From Flavobacteriales bacterium (GTDB lineage: Bacteria; Bacteroidota; Bacteroidia; NS11-12g; UBA955): a stretch of 64,000 nt of DNA. The stretch's first letter is position 1; every line of letters starts with the position of its first letter. The position numbers and the translations under genes were made by a program. The stretch covers positions 134,756-198,755 of the forward strand of contig CANMCY010000001.1 in NCBI GenBank assembly GCA_947496375.1, read 5' to 3'. The notes under the pieces were generated by a model. The model had not been told where the DNA came from. It did no database searches and was given only the letters and a program-made list of their open reading frames with translations. Below are positions 5,436 through 35,052 of this stretch, one piece after another.

Positions 5436-6902
5436 CTATGCATTCCTTCTTCCCTTGCGGGTGTGTGTGTTCAGTATCCTGGCATTTTCAATTTTAGTTT
5501 CCTGAGATTTGCGCATTCCCCAAATCTTTTCCCTGTGTTCTTTGGGGATTCCCTCTGTGCTGCATATGGGAAGGGGGTAATCCACACCCGGGGTAAATCC
5601 AAACTCTGATTGCTCCAAGGCATTGGTCTCCCAGGGTTTATGCTTCAGATGAACCGGTAAATGTGCCAGTTCAGGACACCATTTTGCAATGAATAATCCG
5701 TCCGGATCGTGGTCCATACTTTGCTTTACCGGATTGTACATGCGTACGGTATTGATACCCGTGGTTCCTGCCTGCATTTGAAACTGCGGGTAGTGGATAC
5801 CCGGCTCGTAGTCCAGAAAAATTTGTGCAATGTGCGCTTTCCCCTTGCGCCAATCGGCTCCCAGGTGGTGGCATAGAAACGAAACCAGCATGGCGCGCAT
5901 TCTGAAATTAATCCAGCCGGTCTGTTGCAGGCACCGCATATTGGCATCCACCATCGGAAAGCCGGTTTTACCCTCTTTCCATGCCGTTATAGCTTGCTCA
6001 TCGTTGTTCCATTGCAGTGAGTCGTAGCCACGGTTAATGTGCTCATACTCATAACGGCATTCCTGCTCAAATTTTTGGATAAAATGGCAATGCCAGCGAA
6101 GTCTTTCCCGAAAAGAGGAAAATGCGCGTTTATGGATTTTGGCATTTTCGGAGGCGTACGCAACCTGATAGGCCTGACGAATGCTCATGTTGCCCCAGGC
6201 AAGATAAGGCGAAAGCCGACTGCACGATTGCCGGCTTTCAGCCGGTTTGGAAATGTGGCGGTTGTAATTTTGGCCGCGTTCCGAAATGAAACTTTGCAGG
6301 TATTGCCAGGCATTTTTTTCTCCCCCCGGCTGCATTGATTTGTTCCAGGGCGATGGCAGATGTAGTGTTTCAGGCAGGGTAGGAAATGGTAAAGCTTCAT
6401 TCACAGCGAGCTGCGGAGAGAATTGATTGTGTATGAGGGGCGCATGCATGTGCCCAAACCATTGCTTATCCCATCCATCGCGGTTTTGAATGCCTCTCAG
6501 AATTCCATCCCGCTGAAATTCCTGCCATTCGATGTGATGTTCTTTCAACAATTGCCCAACGGATTTATCTCGCTGCCAGGTTTGTAAAACGCCGCTTTCT
6601 CTGTAGCTGAAAACGCTGTGAATGTTATATTTTTCTATGAGAAACTGAAATACCACGGTGGCTTCTGAACAGGCACTATGTACCTGCATGTTGGCCCTTG
6701 ACAGTTTGCCATTCATGTCTTCCAGGGATTGAAGCTGAAACTGTATATGACGCCCGCTGCAATCCGGACGTGCCATGAGGGATGGCTCAAATAGATACAG
6801 CATCAGGTAAGGAATACCGGCTATTTCTGCAGCGTGCATAGGTGCATGATCCGTAGTTCGAAGATCGCGTTTCAGCCACACTACATTGATGGATGGCTTC
6901 AT
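5436..6902 (-). CDS. cryptochrome/photolyase family protein (class I-like)
   Basis: The 488-residue protein has an N-terminal Rossmann antenna domain ([15 protein letters not shown], residues 8-22) and a helical FAD domain with [11 protein letters not shown] (about 229-239), [11 protein letters not shown] and WRKG motifs. This places it in the photolyase/cryptochrome superfamily, which repairs UV photoproducts or senses blue light. At the FAD N5 site, where CPD photolyases carry an Asn-rich NNGG stretch, it has [12 protein letters not shown]. It may therefore be a divergent repair enzyme or a cryptochrome. Its ATG overlaps the stop of the upstream photolyase-like gene by 4 nt. Confidence 0.88.
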
Positions 6903-8374
6903 AGGTCCAGACGCTGAAGGTAAATTTCAGACTCACTGAAATGTTGATTCCGCTTATCGGGATCCATGCGGTCCAGGGTTTTTAGCAGCATTCCGATTCG
7001 AGGGTTTTGTCCAAAAAAATCTCGGTGCCTGTGCATGAATGACCAGAACAGGCCGTCCCAGATTTTCTCCCACCGCCCATCGCCTTTGTAGTCGGACATT
7101 TTAAGCAGGTAGTTGCTTCCACTGATGTAGGGTTTGGAGCACATTCTCCCACCGTCAGCAAACTGGCTCATACCGTATACATTGGGTACCATTACCCAAT
7201 CATACGCATCAATGTACATTTCCATGAACCAGCGGTACACTTCGTCGGGATCAAATTCGCATAGCAGCATAAAGTTGCCCAGCACCATCAGTCTTTCAAT
7301 ATGATGATTGTAGCCGGTTTTTAGTAGTTTTTGGATGCAGTCATCAATCGGGGCTATACCGGTGGTACCGTTGTAGAAGGAGGGTGGGATTTTTCTTGAA
7401 AAACCCCAGAAGTTGGTGGTGCGTTGCCGGGTTCCGAGTTGCAGGTAAAAAAGCCGTACAAATTCCCGCCATCCCACAATCTGTCTGATGAAACCTTCCA
7501 GCGAAGCCAACGGAACCGGATGTTTGTCAGAAAACAGGATGGCCGCATCAATGATCTGTTGAGGTGTGAGGAGCCCAATATTCAACATGGGCGTGAGCAC
7601 AGAATGATGCAGCCAGTGTTCAGACTGTACGATGGCATCCTCATAAGGCCCAAAATCCTGAAAGCGTTGTATCAGAAATTGCTGCAGCCAGCGTTCGGCT
7701 TCTTCATGGGTAGACGGGTAATTGATTCCGTTGTTCAGTTCGCCGGGGTGGTTGGGGAAATGCTTGAAGACGAATTGCCTTGCTTCTTCCGTAAATTGAT
7801 TTTCCTCAGGAAATACAAGTGCCGGCGGTTTTTTGCCGGTGGGGTAGCGTTTGCGGTTATCCGTATCGTAGGTCCATTGGCCCCCCACAGGTTTATTATT
7901 ATCCATGAGCAAATTCCGCTGTTTGCGCTGCGCCACATAAAAGTCGGTTTGCACCATGCTTCCGTCTTTGCGGGTAGGTAAGGGCGTATTGCGGCCGTTC
8001 ATATAACCCGGACTTTCATGAATATGCAGTTCTATGCCCATTTTTCGACATTGTTTTGTCAAACGTTGTTCGAGCCAGGTATCTGCAGGGTCGTAACAGT
8101 GAATTTCTGTTATTTTTTGGGTCAAAGGGGAAGTCAGCAGTTTCCGGACATCAGATTCCGGCTGAAGGCAGTCAATATAGGTGCAGTGGATTTGGTTTTG
8201 GGTAAGATACTGATGATAGTACTGCATACTGCTGCGATGCAATGCGAGTTTTTGCTTGTGAAACGCGAATTGACGGAAGAAAAGGTGTTCTTCAATCAGG
8301 TAAACTTCCCCTACATTCTTAAGGTGTTCAATGTCTTTGAATAGTTGATGGGGAAATATCAGGAAGGCATTCAC
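6899..8374 (-). CDS. PhrB/FeS-BCP-like (6-4) photolyase family protein, apparently lacking the Fe-S cysteines
   Basis: The 491-residue protein matches the prokaryotic (6-4) photolyase group: the N-terminus reads FLIFPHQLF, and the C-terminal catalytic domain has GWREFVR (301-307), [11 protein letters not shown] (357-367), [21 protein letters not shown] (389-409) and MSDY (426-429). In the family as I know it, MSDY continues with a Cys-x-x-Cys that binds a [4Fe-4S] cluster, plus another Cys before LYW. Here the sequence is [19 protein letters not shown], with no Cys. It is first in a two-gene operon with the second photolyase. Confidence 0.88.
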
Positions 8375-25943: not shown

Positions 25944-26999
25944 TCAGAATGCTTCACCAAAGGCGAAGTAAAACCCGGATTGGCCCTTCAAACCGATGGC
26001 ATAATCAATGCGCATGTTGATATTGGCCTTTCTGTCTGCGAGAAATCTAATACCTGCATTGGCCGTCGGTTTAAACGGGTTTTTGTAAATGTCTGCGGGT
26101 TGGGTAAAAACCGTTCCGGAAGCGGCTCCCAGCGCAAATCCCCAGCGCCTGTAGAGTTTTGCACGGAACTCACTGTTGAAAACCAGCATCCCCCTGTCTC
26201 TGAACCTTCCCAGGTAATAACCCCTCAGGTTTTTGTCGCCACCCAGCATGGCCATGTCGAAAAAGTGGGTAGGGGCAGATAGGTGCGAAAATGCCATTCG
26301 GCCTGCAATAATGGAGTTTTCACCGGTCTTGAAATACGTTCTGCCATCCACCATCAATCGGATGCCGTTACCGACAGTCCCCGCCATGTTGCGGATCAAT
26401 TGTACATCCATGTAACTGCCTTTTTGCGGATTGAGTAGGTTGTTTCGACTATCGTGCAGGCATTGTAACCCCACTGCCGTTACTTTCAGCAAATTTTCTG
26501 ACGGGGATTGTTCAAACGCAATGTGGCTTCGTTGCTGATGTCGCAATACGGGCCCTGCAAACCAGTTGTTTCTCACCCGTTTTAGCGTGGCTATTTCAAA
26601 CCAGCTTCTTCGGCTGTTGTAAGACTCCCGATTGCTTTCAGGGGTGTTAATCCCGGTGCCCCACCAAAAATCGGGGAAACGGCTGTGGTGGGCTGTAAAA
26701 GTAATGAGCCATTTTTCGCCCGGTGAAAATACCGTTCCGGAAATTTCAGCAATGGATTGATTTTTCTGTGTGTATTGCAGCTCTGTTTTGACGGATGACA
26801 ACCTGGTGTTTAGGTGGGTTTTGAATGCCAGTTGACAAACAGCACCTGCGTACCCCCGTGTTTCAGGGGCATAGCCCAGGGTTGGTACCGCTAAAACACT
26901 AATTTTACCTGAATCTTTTGGGCTTGAGTGAAATGTGTTTTTAGCATGTAAAACAAGCGGTAACAGCGAAAAAGCGATTTTCAACAGGACAACTTTCAA
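25944..26999 (-). CDS. BamA/TamA-type (Omp85) outer-membrane barrel without POTRA domains
   Basis: The 351-residue protein has a signal peptide (to about residue 20). A barrel domain follows directly, with AVPTLGYAPETRGYAGA near the start and the late GGDKNLRGYYLGRFRDRGM and EFRAKLYRRWGFALGA strands typical of the Omp85 C-terminal barrel. It ends with an aromatic-rich strand (GFYFAFGEAF). It lacks POTRA repeats, so it is a stand-alone surface-antigen type barrel; function unknown. The start is TTG at 26999, 7 nt from a -7 element. The nearby ATG (27002-27004) is out of frame. Confidence 0.82.
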   Translation of the reverse strand: MKVVLLKIAFSLLPLVLHAKNTFHSSPKDSGKISVLAVPTLGYAPETRGYAGAVCQLAFKTHLNTRLSSVKTELQYTQKNQSIAEISGTVFSPGEKWLITFTAHHSRFPDFWWGTGINTPESNRESYNSRRSWFEIATLKRVRNNWFAGPVLRHQQRSHIAFEQSPSENLLKVTAVGLQCLHDSRNNLLNPQKGSYMDVQLIRNMAGTVGNGIRLMVDGRTYFKTGENSIIAGRMAFSHLSAPTHFFDMAMLGGDKNLRGYYLGRFRDRGMLVFNSEFRAKLYRRWGFALGAASGTVFTQPADIYKNPFKPTANAGIRFLADRKANINMRIDYAIGLKGQSGFYFAFGEAF

Positions 27000-27014: not shown

Positions 27015-27135
27015 CGACGGCTGTGGTTCGATTGATTTGGAAATGTGGTCAAAAATGCGTATATTTATACTTTCTATTTGAGGGCATCTGCTTTGCTGTT
27101 AAATTCACGGCAAATTTGCAGAAATACGCTTTTTT

Positions 27136-27161
27136 TGCAACCATTCGCCCATTGCTGCGTC
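27136..27161 (+). promoter_or_regulatory. possible ECF sigma-type promoter (TGCAACC - 15 nt - CGTC)
   Basis: TGCAACC at 27136-27142 and CGTC at 27158-27161 are spaced like ECF -35 (AAC core) and -10 (CGTC) elements, and lie 17 nt before the sigma-factor start. No TAnnTTTG is found here, so autoregulation of the sigma gene is plausible. This is an inference from motif shape alone. Confidence 0.4.
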
Positions 27162-27178
27162 ATTAATATTGAAACTAC

Positions 27179-27727
27179 TTGTTAACGGATGAGGACATCA
27201 TACAAGGTTGCAAAAAAGGAGACCGTCGTGCACAGGAAGCATTGTTTCTGCGCTACGGTAAAAAAATGTACGGCTACTGCCTGCGTTACTCCGGCAATCC
27301 TGCCGATGCCAACGATCTGCTTCAGGATGGTTTTGTAAAGGTCTTTGAGTTTATCGGCACCTTCAAGGGAGACAGTGCCATAGAAGCATGGATGACGCGG
27401 CTGTTTATCAACCTGGCCATTTCACGCTTCCGCAAAAGGAGTTCCGGACCCCAGTTTGTGGAAGTTGATTCCATACCGCTTGCCGAACAGGCGGATGAAA
27501 AGGAAGAAGTTCAGGAAACCTTGCGTGAATCTGTGGATGAAGTACTGTCTGCCCTTGCTGCCCTGCCGGAAAAGTACCGACTGGTGATTAACCTGTACGC
27601 CATAGACAAAATGAGCCACAGGGAAATTGCAGAGCAGCTGGGAATTTCCGAAGGTGGCAGTAAAAGTCTGCTCAGCAGGGGGCGCGTGATGCTTAAAGAA
27701 CTTTTGGCTAATAAAAAGAAACGTTGA
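27179..27727 (+). CDS. ECF-type RNA polymerase sigma factor
   Basis: The 182-residue protein has region 2 (LFLRYGKKMYGYCLRYSGNP, DLLQDGFVKVF) and region 4 (LPEKYRLVINLYAIDKMSHREIAEQL, ending SRGRVMLKELL). A stop codon lies directly upstream, so TTG at 27179 is the start. The target regulon is unknown. Its stop overlaps the TTG start of the next gene (TTGA), so translation is coupled to a membrane protein that is the obvious anti-sigma candidate. Confidence 0.95.
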   Translation: MLTDEDIIQGCKKGDRRAQEALFLRYGKKMYGYCLRYSGNPADANDLLQDGFVKVFEFIGTFKGDSAIEAWMTRLFINLAISRFRKRSSGPQFVEVDSIPLAEQADEKEEVQETLRESVDEVLSALAALPEKYRLVINLYAIDKMSHREIAEQLGISEGGSKSLLSRGRVMLKELLANKKKR

Positions 27728-29016
27728 AAAACGAAGATATCCATACCGACCAGCAGCTTCAGGGATTATTCCAGTCCTTCGAGCCGCCGCTGCCCAAAGG
27801 CGCCTGGGAAGGTATTGAGGATAGCATGAACCGCAAGCATCGTCGTCGTGTTGCCCTCTGGTGGATAGCCGCCGCAGCCGCTTTGGTCGGTTGCATTAGC
27901 GGCTTGTGGTTCGTTTTGTCTGATACCCAATACACACAAAAATCAGTTAAAAAACAGGAAATGACTGTCAACACCCCTTCAGACAGTCAAATCAAACCCT
28001 CTAAAAACGCTGAAACCATCAGCACACAGGATAATTTTGGCAAAAAGGATATTCAGACAGGTCGGGTTAAAGTAAATCAGATTCAAAATGAGCCAATTTC
28101 AAACAATCTGGCAATACCTGAAAATTATGAACCCAATCGGGTTGGCTTAGAGCCCGTGTGGGAATCCAAACCCGGGCAGGTTGCATTACCTGATCCGTTT
28201 GGACTGCGCTTGACTCCGCAGCAGTGGCCTGCAGTTAATGATGTCAGGGCGGTTAAAATTGCCGTAAAAGAGGCGCAAAAAGTGGCAGATTCGCTGAAAG
28301 CAAACATGGGTAAGTGGACACTGTCCGCAGCGTTATATCAAATGCAGACAGGCAATGGCTATGCCGTTAATCCCGAGTACAGCCGGTATGTACACAAGAA
28401 TTATCTCAGCAGGATGAAAGAAGGAGAGCTCAACATGGGCGGCACAGGTTTCGCCATTCATTTGGGTTACCAGATGAATCAAAAATACGCCATTACAGGC
28501 GGCGTGCAGTTCAGGCAGCTCAATATCAGGCAACAGTTCAATTTTACTGACGAAGTGCCTGTTACCCTAATGCCGGGAAATACCCCTGATGAATTTGGCA
28601 ATTATCCCATCATCGGATACTTTGGAAATGCCGGAAGTGTAACATACAGCGGTTTTCAAAGAAATACCATTGTGGAGATACCTCTGGGCATGAATGCAGA
28701 TTTTAGGGTTACGCCCAAATGGTCTGTGAAACCGGCCATTTCCGTCAATACAGGGTTTGTTGGCGGTATCAATGGTTTCACGCTGGATTACCAGCAATTG
28801 CAGTTAACAGCACAGCGTTCAGAATGGTTCAGGAAAGTTCAGATGTCAGGATCACTTTCTTTGGGAGCTTTCCGGCAGATTAACCGTAAACTGCAATGGG
28901 GTGCTACCATTGGCGGCACTCGCATGCTTACACCGGCATATATTCCCAATGCCAGCGTCAGACCCCGCAATCATTCACTGGGTATAGGTACACAATTAAA
29001 CTGGAGGATTGACTAA
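27724..29016 (+). CDS. inner-membrane-anchored protein with C-terminal outer-membrane-barrel-like domain (candidate anti-sigma)
   Basis: The 430-residue protein has a 40-residue cytoplasmic N-terminus (LQGLFQSFEPPLPKGAWEGIED) and one membrane helix (about 43-66, ALWWIAAAAALVGC). A low-complexity polar linker (about 67-195) follows, then a beta-strand-rich domain (about 196-430) with GGTGFAIHLGYQMNQKYAIT and alternating strands to the end, as in porin-like barrels. No classic zinc anti-sigma motif is visible. Coupling to the ECF gene suggests signal transfer from envelope to sigma factor; this is inference. Confidence 0.75.
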   Translation: MKNEDIHTDQQLQGLFQSFEPPLPKGAWEGIEDSMNRKHRRRVALWWIAAAAALVGCISGLWFVLSDTQYTQKSVKKQEMTVNTPSDSQIKPSKNAETISTQDNFGKKDIQTGRVKVNQIQNEPISNNLAIPENYEPNRVGLEPVWESKPGQVALPDPFGLRLTPQQWPAVNDVRAVKIAVKEAQKVADSLKANMGKWTLSAALYQMQTGNGYAVNPEYSRYVHKNYLSRMKEGELNMGGTGFAIHLGYQMNQKYAITGGVQFRQLNIRQQFNFTDEVPVTLMPGNTPDEFGNYPIIGYFGNAGSVTYSGFQRNTIVEIPLGMNADFRVTPKWSVKPAISVNTGFVGGINGFTLDYQQLQLTAQRSEWFRKVQMSGSLSLGAFRQINRKLQWGATIGGTRMLTPAYIPNASVRPRNHSLGIGTQLNWRID

Positions 29017-31482
29017 ATGATGACAGTAAAATTCCACTTTTTACCTAAATTGCAGTTTGTGAGAATCCTGTTTACACTTCTTGCCATGCATTGCATGTTT
29101 GCCAAGGCACAGGTGCTGGAGCCCCTGGGTAACGGCCTTCCAAGCAAGGTGGTGGCCGCTTATGCATCAGGGCAGGATTATCTGGCTTTGTTCAGCGACG
29201 AAACTACCCAGGATACATCAGATTTTATAGTGGCGCGTTGGAATGGTGCTTACTGGTCTTATTTCCCGGGGCTTTACAAGCCTGATGCCGTAAAAACAAT
29301 TGATGCCGGATATGTATTTAACAGCGTGGTCATATACAGAGATACGCTCTATGTGGGTGCCTATATTTCCGGAGCCCAAAAAGATGTGGATGTCCCTGTG
29401 AGCCATTTGTACAAATGGAACGGTGAGCGCTGGGTGACTGATAACAGTGTGATAAAAAGCAAAAATGATGGCATTGTAGCCATGACCGTTTTCGATGACA
29501 AACTGGTGGTCGCGGGTAAATTCCTCGATGTAATCAACGGCAATCTGGTCAATAATATCGCCATTTATGACGGAATAAAAGGGCAGTGGGGATTTTTGGG
29601 CAGCTCAAACACCAATCAGGGCTCTGATGGTGCCATCAAAGCGCTGCAGGTGCTGGGCAACAGACTCTATATTGCAGGGGATTTCCAAAACTTTGCAGGG
29701 ACGTTTACCGGCAATATTGCTTATTACACAGCCACAAACCAAACATGGGGTGGCATTGGCAGTCCTTTCAATCAGAAAGTTGATCAATTGGCAGCATACG
29801 GTGATAAACTGGCAGCTTTAGGTTATGTATCGGGCAAACAGGAAATCAGAGAATTTGATGGTAACTGGAGTTCAGCATTGTCATTCAGTTCTTTTAGCAA
29901 GGCAGATTTTACCACCATTGCAGGCTCAGCCAACACACTGTTGATAGGAGGAGACTTTCTCATTGGTGGAAATGGTAGTTCCATCCTTCGGTATGAAAAT
30001 GGATTGCTCAAAACCACTGGCAACCGAATCAGTGGGATGTTTTATTTGGGACAGCGGGGTTCAGAAGCGTTTATCTGGGGCGATTTTACCGAACAAAATA
30101 CCGGACTCAGGCGCATTTGTAAGATAGAAAGCAATGCCGGTGATATGGCAGGAGAGGTTTTTTATGATAAAAACCAGAATTGCATTAATGATGCATCTGA
30201 TGTACCCATGAATATGGTTACTGTGCGTTTTAGCAGCATTAAATCAGGGAAGATGTGGTTTGCTGTTACAGACTCCAGGGGACGGTTTGCAGCCGCATTG
30301 CCAGAAGATGACTACAGCATTCAAGTATTTGCCGGTAGACACTGGATGAATTCATGTCCCGGCAACTTTGCCAGTGCCATAAAAAAAGGTGAGTACAGCA
30401 TGGTTTCACTGTCTCAATACATGCCACCCAATGTGAGTGATGTTGAAATCAATACGGATATGATTACTCCGGGAAATGTCAGGCCGGGCGAAGAGGTAAA
30501 AGCGGTTATTACGCTTAAAAATGCAGGTAACACTGTTATTAACGGTCCCACATTCCATTTGATTCATGATGCCAGATTATCTGATTTTACTGCCGACAGT
30601 CTGCCCGATAACTATGCCGGTAATGAAGCCACCTGGAGTATTACCCGATTTGAACCGGGTTCGGTGCGCAGCATACCATTTTCGTTTCGCTTACCGGCCA
30701 ACGCGCAGACCACAGATCGTTTTCCGGTATACCTGAAAACGGGTACCACCTTCACCGCCGGAGATGCTTTCAAAGGCGATAATGCAGATACGCTTCAGTT
30801 GAAATTGATGGATAATACTGTGAGTGCGGTAACCAAAGTGAGTTTGAAAGGGGATGATGTTGATTTTAGGGTGAAAGATTTAACCTACCATGTTAACTTC
30901 ACCAATACCGGCAAAAGTTTTGTCAAAAGACTGGTGATGCTGGATACCGTTGACGCAAACCTGCCCATGAGCCGTGTGGTTATCACAAACCTTTATCCGA
31001 CCGATGCTGTGGTTCGCACAGAAAAAGGCAATATACTGGTGGTGGAATTCCCCAATGCCAATCTTGCGGCCTTGGAGTCTAATCCGGCTGCTGCCAGTGG
31101 GTTCATCACCTACAAAATAGAATTAACCGCAGACCTGAAATCAGGTCAGAATTTTTATAACCGCGCAAACGGTGACTTTGACAGCCGATGGAAAGCCAGC
31201 AGTAATATGGTGGTGGTAATGGCCAAAAACCCCTCAGCTTCTCTGAAAACACTAGGTGCAGGTGATGCCAGAATGTGGCCTAATCCTGCCAAAGATGAGC
31301 TTAATATTCATTGGGCTGCGTCCATCAATGGACCAGTTTACATTACAGATAACGCGGGCAGAATGGCAATGACCGTTCCTGTATCCGGGAAAAGTATTAC
31401 AATTCAACTCAGCAAACTGAAGCCGGGTCTGTACTTTTTGAAATCACCGGTCGGTGTAAGTGCTTTCCAGGTTATTCGCTAA
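29017..31482 (+). CDS. large T9SS-secreted surface protein
   Basis: The 821-residue protein has a signal peptide (to about residue 31, ending AKA). Propeller-like repeats follow (about 40-370) with recurring YKWNGERW/LYIAGDFQNF units. Next come an SdrD-B-like segment (GEVFYDKNQNCINDASD, about 385-400), a DUF11/CARDB-like region (about 470-740) and a T9SS type A sorting domain (MWPNPAKDELNIHW near 752 to the end GLYFLKSP...FQVIR). It would be exported and anchored or released at the cell surface. It begins directly after the barrel gene's stop. Its 3' end overlaps the convergent reductase gene by 11 nt. Confidence 0.85.
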   Translation: MMTVKFHFLPKLQFVRILFTLLAMHCMFAKAQVLEPLGNGLPSKVVAAYASGQDYLALFSDETTQDTSDFIVARWNGAYWSYFPGLYKPDAVKTIDAGYVFNSVVIYRDTLYVGAYISGAQKDVDVPVSHLYKWNGERWVTDNSVIKSKNDGIVAMTVFDDKLVVAGKFLDVINGNLVNNIAIYDGIKGQWGFLGSSNTNQGSDGAIKALQVLGNRLYIAGDFQNFAGTFTGNIAYYTATNQTWGGIGSPFNQKVDQLAAYGDKLAALGYVSGKQEIREFDGNWSSALSFSSFSKADFTTIAGSANTLLIGGDFLIGGNGSSILRYENGLLKTTGNRISGMFYLGQRGSEAFIWGDFTEQNTGLRRICKIESNAGDMAGEVFYDKNQNCINDASDVPMNMVTVRFSSIKSGKMWFAVTDSRGRFAAALPEDDYSIQVFAGRHWMNSCPGNFASAIKKGEYSMVSLSQYMPPNVSDVEINTDMITPGNVRPGEEVKAVITLKNAGNTVINGPTFHLIHDARLSDFTADSLPDNYAGNEATWSITRFEPGSVRSIPFSFRLPANAQTTDRFPVYLKTGTTFTAGDAFKGDNADTLQLKLMDNTVSAVTKVSLKGDDVDFRVKDLTYHVNFTNTGKSFVKRLVMLDTVDANLPMSRVVITNLYPTDAVVRTEKGNILVVEFPNANLAALESNPAAASGFITYKIELTADLKSGQNFYNRANGDFDSRWKASSNMVVVMAKNPSASLKTLGAGDARMWPNPAKDELNIHWAASINGPVYITDNAGRMAMTVPVSGKSITIQLSKLKPGLYFLKSPVGVSAFQVIR

Positions 31483-32065
31483 GCAATGCATCCGCATTGC
31501 GCATTAAACGGAGGTTGTAGTTCACGAAATTTTCCAGGCCTGAATCGTATTCAGCGTTTCCCAAACTTTCTCCTTGTAAGTCAAGGGCTTTAGGGGTAAA
31601 CTGACTTTCAAAACTCTTGGCTGAAACAATGCTGTTACAATTCATAAAGTTGATGAGCTTATTAAGCATGTAACCCATCTGAATGGCAGGAATACGGCCG
31701 CCCCTGCCGCTGCTGACCCCGCAAGTAGCAAAAATCTTTCCTTCCCAGCAATCCAAAAAATCTTTTTTGCCAAACTGGTTAATCAGATTGATGATCTCAG
31801 GGGTAGGAAACCAATTGTATTCAGGGGATAGTATAAAGATGAGTTTGCTTTTGGATAAGCTCTCATAAGCCGCCCGGCTGAATGGGGACAGTTGTCCCGG
31901 AGTGAGCATACCTCCATTGCTGAAGGGAATATCGTATTGCTCGAAATTGGGGATTCTGATTTGGTTTGATTCAATGCCCCCGGACTCCAGTATTCGCTGT
32001 ATGGCAAGACCCACTCGTCGGGTATTGCTGTGGGTTCTCGACGAACCACAAAGAATTCCAATCAT
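31472..32065 (-). CDS. NADPH-dependent FMN reductase family protein
   Basis: The 197-residue flavodoxin-fold protein has the phosphate-binding loop CGSSRTHSNTRRVG (about 5-18) and SPEYNWFPTPEIINLINQF. This fits the NADPH-dependent FMN reductase/ArsH-like group, which reduces flavins or quinones in the cytosol. The start overlaps meaB's stop by 4 nt, making it the third gene of the engB-meaB operon. Confidence 0.88.
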   Translation of the reverse strand: MIGILCGSSRTHSNTRRVGLAIQRILESGGIESNQIRIPNFEQYDIPFSNGGMLTPGQLSPFSRAAYESLSKSKLIFILSPEYNWFPTPEIINLINQFGKKDFLDCWEGKIFATCGVSSGRGGRIPAIQMGYMLNKLINFMNCNSIVSAKSFESQFTPKALDLQGESLGNAEYDSGLENFVNYNLRLMRNADALLSE

Positions 32066-33652: not shown

Positions 33653-34375
33653 GTGCAAGTAAAACCCAATCAGGATTCCGCGCTTTCAAAAAAACAACAA
33701 GTTGCTCAAATGTTTGACGACATTTCCGGGCGGTATGATTTTTTAAACAGATTATTGTCGCTGGGTATAGACAGAGGGTGGCGCAAGAAAGTCAGGAAAG
33801 CCCTGTCTGCAGAGCATCACAGCCGTATTTTGGATGTGGCAACGGGTACCGCAGACCTGGCTATTGAATTGTCAAAAATACAGGGGTCTGACATAACCGG
33901 TATCGATATAAGTGCCGGAATGTTGAAAAAGGGGGACGAGAAAATCGCCCGTGCAGGTCTAAATCATCAAATTCGGCTGCAGCTGGCCGATTCCGAAAAT
34001 CTGCCTTTCGGTGACGCTCATTTCGATGCGGTAACAGTTGCCTTCGGTGTTCGAAATTTTGAAAATTTACAGTCCGGAATAAAAGAAATGCTGAGGGTTA
34101 CCCGACCGGGCGGACATTTGTATATCCTGGAGTTCAGCAAGCCCAAAAACCGATTTTTTAGCGGCCTGTACTGGTTTTATTTTAAAAAGGTTTTGCCGGG
34201 CGTGGGAAAACTTGTCAGTTCCAGCGTGAATGCATACAGTTACCTGCCCCGCAGTGTGGAAGCGTTTCCTGAAGGTTCTGAGTTGGCTGCCATTGTGAAA
34301 GATTGCGGCGCAAAATCCGTTATAATTAAACCCCTTACCTTTGGTGTGAGTTCGCTTTATATATGCGAAAAGTAA
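33653..34375 (+). CDS. ubiE: demethylmenaquinone methyltransferase
   Basis: The 240-residue protein has SAM-binding LDVATGTADLAIELS and the family signatures FDDISGRYDFLNRLLSLGID and RVTRPGGHLYILEFSKP. It methylates demethylmenaquinone to menaquinone, the respiratory quinone of this phylum. The start is GTG at 33653. Its end overlaps the start of the porT-like gene by 13 nt. Confidence 0.96.
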   Translation: MQVKPNQDSALSKKQQVAQMFDDISGRYDFLNRLLSLGIDRGWRKKVRKALSAEHHSRILDVATGTADLAIELSKIQGSDITGIDISAGMLKKGDEKIARAGLNHQIRLQLADSENLPFGDAHFDAVTVAFGVRNFENLQSGIKEMLRVTRPGGHLYILEFSKPKNRFFSGLYWFYFKKVLPGVGKLVSSSVNAYSYLPRSVEAFPEGSELAAIVKDCGAKSVIIKPLTFGVSSLYICEK

Positions 34376-35052
34376 TTGCCATAGCCATTTGCTCCATTTG
34401 CCTGATTTTACAGGCGCAAACTGATCCCAACCGGATCTACAGAAAGCATTTTTTCTGGGGTATTGCATTTACGGGAACGTATGCCAAAATGAAAATGAAC
34501 CTAGATCCTGTATTCTGGCAGAGACAGGATTCTATTGCCGCTATATTGCCCGGCGGGCAGGCGGGCGGCGGGTTTGGAGGAACCGTAGCTTATCGGTTTG
34601 GTAAACACTGGGAGTTGAAAACGCTTACCATGCTGCAGTTACACCAAAGAGACCTGAAATATAAATGGCGCAACACACCCGGTCCGGATATTAAGATGGA
34701 GACCATCTCTTTTGATTTACCCGTAACCCTGAAGTACAGAAGTAAGATGCACGGCAATAAAAGATTTTATGTACTTGGCGGAATGCGCTGGAGTCATGAT
34801 TTTCAGAGCAACGAAGATGTCGTGATTGGCGTGAACAAACCGCTGGTGGCACTCAAGAAAAATACGTTTTACTATGAGTATGGCGCGGGTTGGGAGTTTC
34901 AGCTCGATTTTGTGGATTTAAGTGTGGAACTCAAAATGAGTAACGGCCTTAATAATGGTCTGGCGAATCGCGTCCCCAACAGCTATTACAGCGGTTCTAT
35001 CCAAAGTATTTTCCCTCGTTTGTTTAGTCTTTCTCTGATGGCCCAAAACTGA
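34363..35052 (+). CDS. porT: PorT-like outer-membrane barrel protein (type IX secretion)
   Basis: The 229-residue protein has a signal peptide (ending LQAQ, about residue 19) and an eight-strand-type barrel with LPVTLKYRSKMHGNKRFYVLGG and YEYGAGWEFQL, ending in a strand (RLFSLSLMAQN). The family in Bacteroidota is the T9SS component PorT/SprT, typically encoded directly after ubiE, as here. The call rests on this neighbourhood plus the barrel pattern. At least three T9SS-type substrates are encoded in the window. Confidence 0.72.
   Translation: MRKVIAIAICSICLILQAQTDPNRIYRKHFFWGIAFTGTYAKMKMNLDPVFWQRQDSIAAILPGGQAGGGFGGTVAYRFGKHWELKTLTMLQLHQRDLKYKWRNTPGPDIKMETISFDLPVTLKYRSKMHGNKRFYVLGGMRWSHDFQSNEDVVIGVNKPLVALKKNTFYYEYGAGWEFQLDFVDLSVELKMSNGLNNGLANRVPNSYYSGSIQSIFPRLFSLSLMAQN

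Follow-up and report, generated by a model that had tools for sequence, protein, structure and literature searches.

An extracytoplasmic function sigma factor, a predicted trans-envelope anti-sigma factor and a type IX-secreted protein encoded in one operon of a Flavobacteriales bacterium

Introduction

How can a sigma factor be informed about events at the outer membrane if its operon encodes neither a separate anti-sigma factor nor a TonB-dependent receptor? This question is raised by a three-gene operon of a Flavobacteriales bacterium (GenBank assembly GCA_947496375.1, contig CANMCY010000001.1), which we analysed within a stretch of 64,000 nucleotides (positions 134,756 to 198,755 of the forward strand; hereafter the window). 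The operon comprises the genes for an extracytoplasmic function (ECF) sigma factor, a 430-residue protein and a large protein exported by the type IX secretion system (T9SS). An earlier note on this DNA had proposed a one-protein envelope sensor that bridges the periplasm and passes a signal directly to the sigma factor, with the secreted protein as ligand or target. Based on our data, it is likely that the operon encodes a system of the Dma/Das type, in which an anti-sigma factor spanning both membranes would control the ECF sigma factor and thereby its own operon and a second T9SS gene. The one-protein bridge is already known from gut Bacteroides; the new part is the T9SS partner together with the predicted regulon.

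Operon layout and architecture of the 430-residue protein

The sigma factor gene and the gene of the 430-residue protein have the four letters TTGA in common, which serve as stop of the former and contain the TTG start of the latter (-4 overlap), and the gene of the secreted protein follows without a gap (Table 1). These coordinates agree with the layout described in the earlier note, as does its statement that a separate anti-sigma factor or TonB receptor is missing: the next gene is located on the opposite strand, therefore the operon has no room for either of them, and neither was among the Pfam and NCBIfam matches at the locus. The first protein contains both typical sigma factor regions (Sigma70_r2, E 1e-14; Sigma70_r4_2, E 1e-15; Pfam), matches SigH, SigE and SigW chains in the PDB and is assigned to the ECF sigma factors at the superfamily level (TIGR02937, sigma70-ECF, E 2e-30; NCBIfam).

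The 430-residue protein is built from four parts, namely i) a short cytoplasmic head, ii) one membrane helix, iii) a long polar linker and iv) a strand-rich C-terminal domain, as also read by the earlier note and now backed by hydropathy, predicted disorder and a structural model. Within the head, which presumably binds the sigma factor, D9, L12 and W28 are nearly invariant among the relatives. The helix reaches 2.09 in its best Kyte-Doolittle window, and past residue 75 no segment exceeds 0.7. An AlphaFold2 model based on an alignment of 34 relatives shows a head helix (residues 9-17), a long helix (27-67), disorder (67-179) and eight long antiparallel strands within residues 198-430, the latter with a pLDDT (predicted local distance difference test) above 90. 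Among the 27 family members of full length, which include the window protein, linkers measure 107-208 residues (median 131) and would extend over at least 38 nm when stretched, while identity to the window protein amounts to 13% in the linker, 36% in the head and 38% in the barrel. A linker with conserved length and free sequence is what one expects of a spanning tether. Two other assignments were discarded. An LVGC lipobox within the helix is a chance occurrence, as the cysteine is not conserved in the relatives, and the identity as an anti-sigma factor of the NF052375 type is based on a weak NCBIfam match over residues 14-77 (E 0.0034), with no match at threshold in the window genome; above-cut-off matches in the class survey sit in open frames of about 270-325 amino acids (aa).

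We infer that the C-terminal domain inserts into the outer membrane as a barrel. The structure prediction suggested as a check in the earlier note returned an eight-stranded barrel, and the best 50 Foldseek matches in the PDB are all outer-membrane barrels (OmpA, Ail, FadL, OmpT, OmpX, OmpW and NspA), with OmpA, Ail and OmpX as nearest folds. Besides, most strands show the alternating polarity of amphipathic barrel strands. A sequence search of the PDB with the profile of the family yielded chance matches only. The protein could also be an ordinary inner-membrane anti-sigma factor with a soluble, strand-rich periplasmic sensor and thus no bridge at all, and the missing match of the window protein itself to any Pfam barrel family speaks for such a sensor. 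Given the modelled barrel, its matches and its strand pattern, together with the fact that a paralogue of the same layout weakly matches OMP_b-brl (E 2e-4) and that relatives with separate halves match OMP_b-brl_2 above the cut-off, we regard a soluble sensor as very improbable.

Table 1. Positions of the features discussed in the text. Plain positions refer to the window, those with a prefix to the locus named.
Feature	Position	Strand	Remarks
ECF-type promoter TTGCAACC-N14-GCGTC	27135..27161	+	upstream of the sigma factor gene; probable autoregulation
ECF sigma factor gene	27179..27727	+	182 aa, TTG start
Dma-like trans-envelope anti-sigma gene (predicted)	27724..29016	+	430 aa, TTG start
Cytoplasmic head, residues 1-42	27724..27849	+	presumed sigma-binding part; motif P..(A/S)W..I; ends with KHRRR
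Single membrane helix, residues about 43-66	27850..27921	+	from hydropathy; KHRRR just before it places the N-terminus inside
Disordered periplasmic tether, residues 67-197	27922..28314	+	pLDDT <50 for residues 67-179; length in relatives
Predicted 8-stranded outer-membrane beta-barrel, residues 198-430	28315..29013	+	AlphaFold model and Foldseek
T9SS-secreted surface protein gene	29017..31482	+	821 aa; begins straight after the stop of the 430-aa gene
Gene following the operon	31472-32065	-
Omp85-family barrel protein gene	25944-26999	-	divergent from the sigma factor gene
PorT/SprT-like T9SS component gene	34363-35052	+	NF052311, 99 bits, under the cut-off of 125
1366-aa T9SS protein gene with second promoter copy	L174:3765-7906		own genome, 27 kb before the window
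Secreted protein gene with third promoter copy	L233:1829-3409	-	genome G006 only
Second sigma-plus-barrel pair	L278:2835-4618	-	contig C37; 416-aa Dma-like protein
Third pair	L277:6632-8236	-	contig C3; sigma 7691-8236, anti-sigma-like 6632-7687 (351 aa)
Third gene beside the third pair	L277:1136-6589	-	contig C3; 1817-aa secreted protein
Loci with split halves	L137:4940-6518, L142:5128-6990, L144:5193-6813, L147:5057-6811

Conservation of the gene order and split relatives

The search for the three-gene order in other Bacteroidota, likewise proposed in the earlier note, gave a clear result. The bridge protein is present in 36 of the closest 58 genomes. Neighbourhoods were read at 39 loci, and a locus was counted only where the contig reaches the neighbour gene. 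In all testable close loci (36/36), the next gene upstream, on the same strand, encodes an ECF sigma factor, and in 35 of 37 the next gene downstream is homologous to the secreted protein gene; the closest relatives even keep the identical -4 overlap and the near-zero gap. Since this order is repeated across dozens of related genomes, it is more than a chance arrangement. A profile search of genome contigs led to 33 named loci, all metagenome-assembled and nearly all labelled Bacteroidota, 32 of which have the adjoining secreted protein gene; viral contigs, when scanned, gave no match. The single locus labelled Sphingomonadales (L069, contig VHBA01000002.1) probably carries a wrong label, as its genes match Bacteroidota relatives.

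At the class level, the bridge profile matches in 130 of 198 genomes, and a sigma factor gene lies beside the bridge gene in all 40 loci opened. The secreted protein gene accompanies the pair in the home order and in a few outside lineages (L131, L133 and, judged from coordinates, G134), while in other lineages the third gene differs, for example a PKD lipoprotein (L145, L152, L166), or is absent. Four class-level loci (L137, L142, L144 and L147) contain a split version, in which the sigma factor gene is followed by a gene for a head-helix-linker protein of 221-263 aa and then by a gene for a barrel protein with signal peptide that matches OMP_b-brl_2, three of them above the curated cut-off and one just below. 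As the two parts are fused in one lineage and encoded by adjacent genes in another, it is very likely that head and barrel work together.

These split loci also bear on an alternative in which the tether is cleaved in the periplasm, so that one gene would give rise to two separate proteins, a barrel and an inner-membrane anti-sigma factor. They indicate that a split product can work, and the disordered tether would be open to proteases. On the other hand, the fusion is kept across the order, the linker holds no conserved cleavage-like motif, and the fused form retains at least 107 linker residues in the 27 relatives, as expected if length matters. We therefore consider cleavage into two products unlikely.

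Promoter, predicted regulon and secreted protein

Upstream of the sigma factor gene we found an ECF-type promoter, on which the start coordinate of the region singled out in the earlier note (27136) happens to fall. Eight relatives from several genera share the boxes TTTTTTTGCAACC and GCGTC without change, whereas the flanks vary, and the distance to the TTG start is nearly fixed (16-17 nt). The exact pattern TTGCAACCN{11,15}GCGTC occurs once in the whole genome and a slightly looser pattern twice; the expectation for a shuffled window is 0.04. The second copy is not part of the window; it stands 47 nt ahead of the start codon (ATG) of a gene whose 1366-aa T9SS product has GEVED and immunoglobulin (Ig)-like domains. 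Each of the seven genomes of the genus has this site before the orthologue of that gene, with a varying spacer sequence. Since sites were collected by the exact pattern, part of the box invariance is due to selection, which does not apply to the recurrence before the same gene. A scan allowing one mismatch gave extra matches at the level of the controls and was not used. We infer that the sigma factor of the operon reads both promoters. In one genome only, a third exact copy is found at least 30 nt before another secreted protein gene.

In the third protein of the operon, a signal peptide (judged from the sequence) and an N-terminal propeller are followed by a stack of Ig-like domains with DUF7619 and by a sorting domain of type A (Por_Secre_tail, E 9e-9; TIGR04183 above the cut-off), so that its description as T9SS-secreted in the earlier note holds. 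Its AlphaFold model (mean pLDDT 83) most closely resembles the arrangement of propeller and leg domains in integrin alpha-chains; as the Foldseek TM-scores are low, the similarity concerns build and not kinship. The protein is better conserved than the bridge protein (42-77% versus 25-57% identity in most relatives). Its C-terminal half is widespread in T9SS cargo, and its strongly conserved propeller half is for the most part confined to these operons. Due to the operon order, the conserved promoter and the second promoter copy at a T9SS gene, the secreted protein is most likely made under the control of the sigma factor, which favours the target role among the two roles offered before. A further role as ligand is compatible with this: bound to the barrel from outside, the propeller protein would hold the sigma factor off and the system would sense the surface coat or T9SS output. 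The close association of the bridge gene with the secreted protein gene and the conserved propeller half fit such a role, for which PorA of Porphyromonas gingivalis, a T9SS cargo protein whose action lies upstream of an ECF sigma factor, is a precedent. However, co-transcription is already explained by the role as product, and the sigma-bridge pair of other lineages has another third gene or none, so that we rate the ligand role as possible rather than likely.

In the vicinity of the operon, a gene for a PorT/SprT-like T9SS component and, divergent from the sigma factor gene, one for an Omp85-family barrel protein were noticed; the nearest relatives have a gene of similar size and strand at the position of the latter.

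Paralogues in the same genome

Two further sigma-plus-partner pairs exist in the genome. The pair on contig C37 encodes the paralogue with the OMP_b-brl match mentioned above and lacks a T9SS third gene. In the pair on contig C3, the anti-sigma-like protein keeps head, helix and linker and ends, instead of a barrel, in a PKD domain plus a T9SS sorting domain of type B (CHU_C, E 4e-11; TIGR04131, slightly over its cut-off). Such a sorting domain on an inner-membrane anti-sigma-like protein was unexpected. Full-length relatives of this protein have a sigma factor gene beside them at 20 of 23 loci, and the large secreted protein encoded next to the C3 pair has a C-terminus that, by eye, resembles a type B sorting domain.

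These pairs allow a speculative and rather doubtful generalization, in which head, helix and tether form a general platform whose outer end is exchanged between an outer-membrane barrel and a T9SS sorting domain, each beside a T9SS protein of matching type, and in which the system directly reports on secretion by the T9SS or on the surface coat. If so, the barrel would be paired with the type A propeller protein and the type B sorting domain with the type B giant, and the cargo, or a T9SS substrate that has stalled while tethered to the sigma factor, would govern how strongly the coat is expressed. A regulator of sigma activity that sits in the inner membrane and carries an export signal for the type IX system would represent a new kind of T9SS sensor.

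Proposed mechanism

In the mechanism we favour, the head of the bridge protein would keep the ECF sigma factor encoded next to it sequestered at the inner membrane, while helix and disordered tether would cross the periplasm and the eight-stranded barrel would reside in the outer membrane. An event at the surface or in the outer membrane would be relayed along the bridge by pulling, conformational change or proteolysis and set the sigma factor free, which would then transcribe its own operon, including the gene of the T9SS propeller protein, as well as the distant gene of the large T9SS surface protein. The secreted propeller protein might in turn dock on the barrel as a feedback ligand. The idea of a bridge put forward in the earlier note is thus strengthened by the barrel model, the linker of at least 107 residues, the pairing with an ECF sigma factor and the layout of the Dma family (PMC13088901).

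Several points weigh against this mechanism. No known anti-sigma domain was found above the curated cut-offs of Pfam and NCBIfam in the bridge protein, and residues 1-26 of its head are modelled at moderate confidence (pLDDT 51-62). The profile match to Dma-like proteins, described below, covers mainly the barrel. Concerning the regulon, control patterns gave 0-3 matches per genome, so that one or two such sites are expected by chance; a lone promoter match is for this reason weak, and it is the conservation that carries weight. Moreover, the second promoter is assigned to this sigma factor by its identical boxes, and the genome contains six other ECF-like sigma matches.

Comparison with known systems

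In FecR-type signalling, control of an ECF sigma factor also starts from an event at an outer-membrane barrel and is exerted by an anti-sigma factor of the inner membrane. That route requires FecR as a separate protein as well as a TonB-dependent receptor, whereas the operon has neither, and FecR/TonB surface signalling was ruled out for this locus.

The P. gingivalis system of PorXY, SigP and PorA connects an ECF sigma factor with surface cargo of the T9SS, as we propose here (PMC7712824). However, a two-component system relays its signal, the target of SigP is the T9SS machinery and not the cargo, and a barrel-tethered anti-sigma factor is not part of it. An ECF-type promoter with a CGT box also drives T9SS genes in Flavobacterium psychrophilum.

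Closer in build is the M0N98_03761/03760 pair of Phocaeicola vulgatus, which behaves as a sigma/anti-sigma pair, responds to the envelope-damaging toxin BcpT and has a related pair in B. fragilis (EcfO) (PMC9308784). Its large anti-sigma factor is likewise predicted to cross the periplasm and to end in an outer-membrane barrel, with envelope stress as the signal (PMC9308784). In contrast to the window operon, it has no T9SS partner, and its regulon includes O-antigen length and NigD genes; NigD is absent from the window genome.

The closest counterpart is the family of dual membrane-spanning anti-sigma factors (Dma/Das) described from Bacteroides thetaiotaomicron. In its members, an anti-sigma part at the N-terminus is joined through a helix and a long disordered tether to a barrel at the C-terminus; they are encoded beside an ECF21 sigma factor gene and are restricted to Bacteroidota, and the effect of deleting dma2 is exerted through its sigma factor das2 (PMC13088901). 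The window protein matches this layout feature by feature, including the adjacent ECF sigma factor gene. Of the one-protein sensor suggested earlier, the bridge architecture is thus retained, while its novelty is lost to the Dma family (PMC13088901). Dma-like proteins of three NigD-bearing genomes (L170, L226, L227), identified by layout and context and not by name, align with the bridge family over the barrel (hhalign probability 96.9%, E 1.7e-10), and the profile of the whole family matches the head and linker of one of these proteins (G223, E 3e-8). On the strength of these profile alignments, the window protein belongs to the Dma kind and probably shares common descent with the Bacteroides Dma proteins. 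A link between T9SS cargo and Dma systems was not found in the literature covered, which did not extend to the founding Dma paper (PNAS 2024). The two systems differ in their third gene, which encodes a DUF4943 protein (BT_1557) in the case of Dma2 and an 800-residue T9SS-secreted propeller protein here, and in their output, since the promoter set in the window genome points to T9SS surface proteins and not to vesicle or polysaccharide utilization locus (PUL) genes.

Taken together, a family so far studied in gut Bacteroidales is extended to freshwater Bacteroidota and gains a physical partner as well as a small predicted regulon of type IX-exported surface proteins. With a near-universal partner gene and a searchable promoter at hand, the question of what Dma proteins sense becomes testable, and the natural split relatives offer a clean way to ask whether the covalent tether of the Dma proteins is needed.

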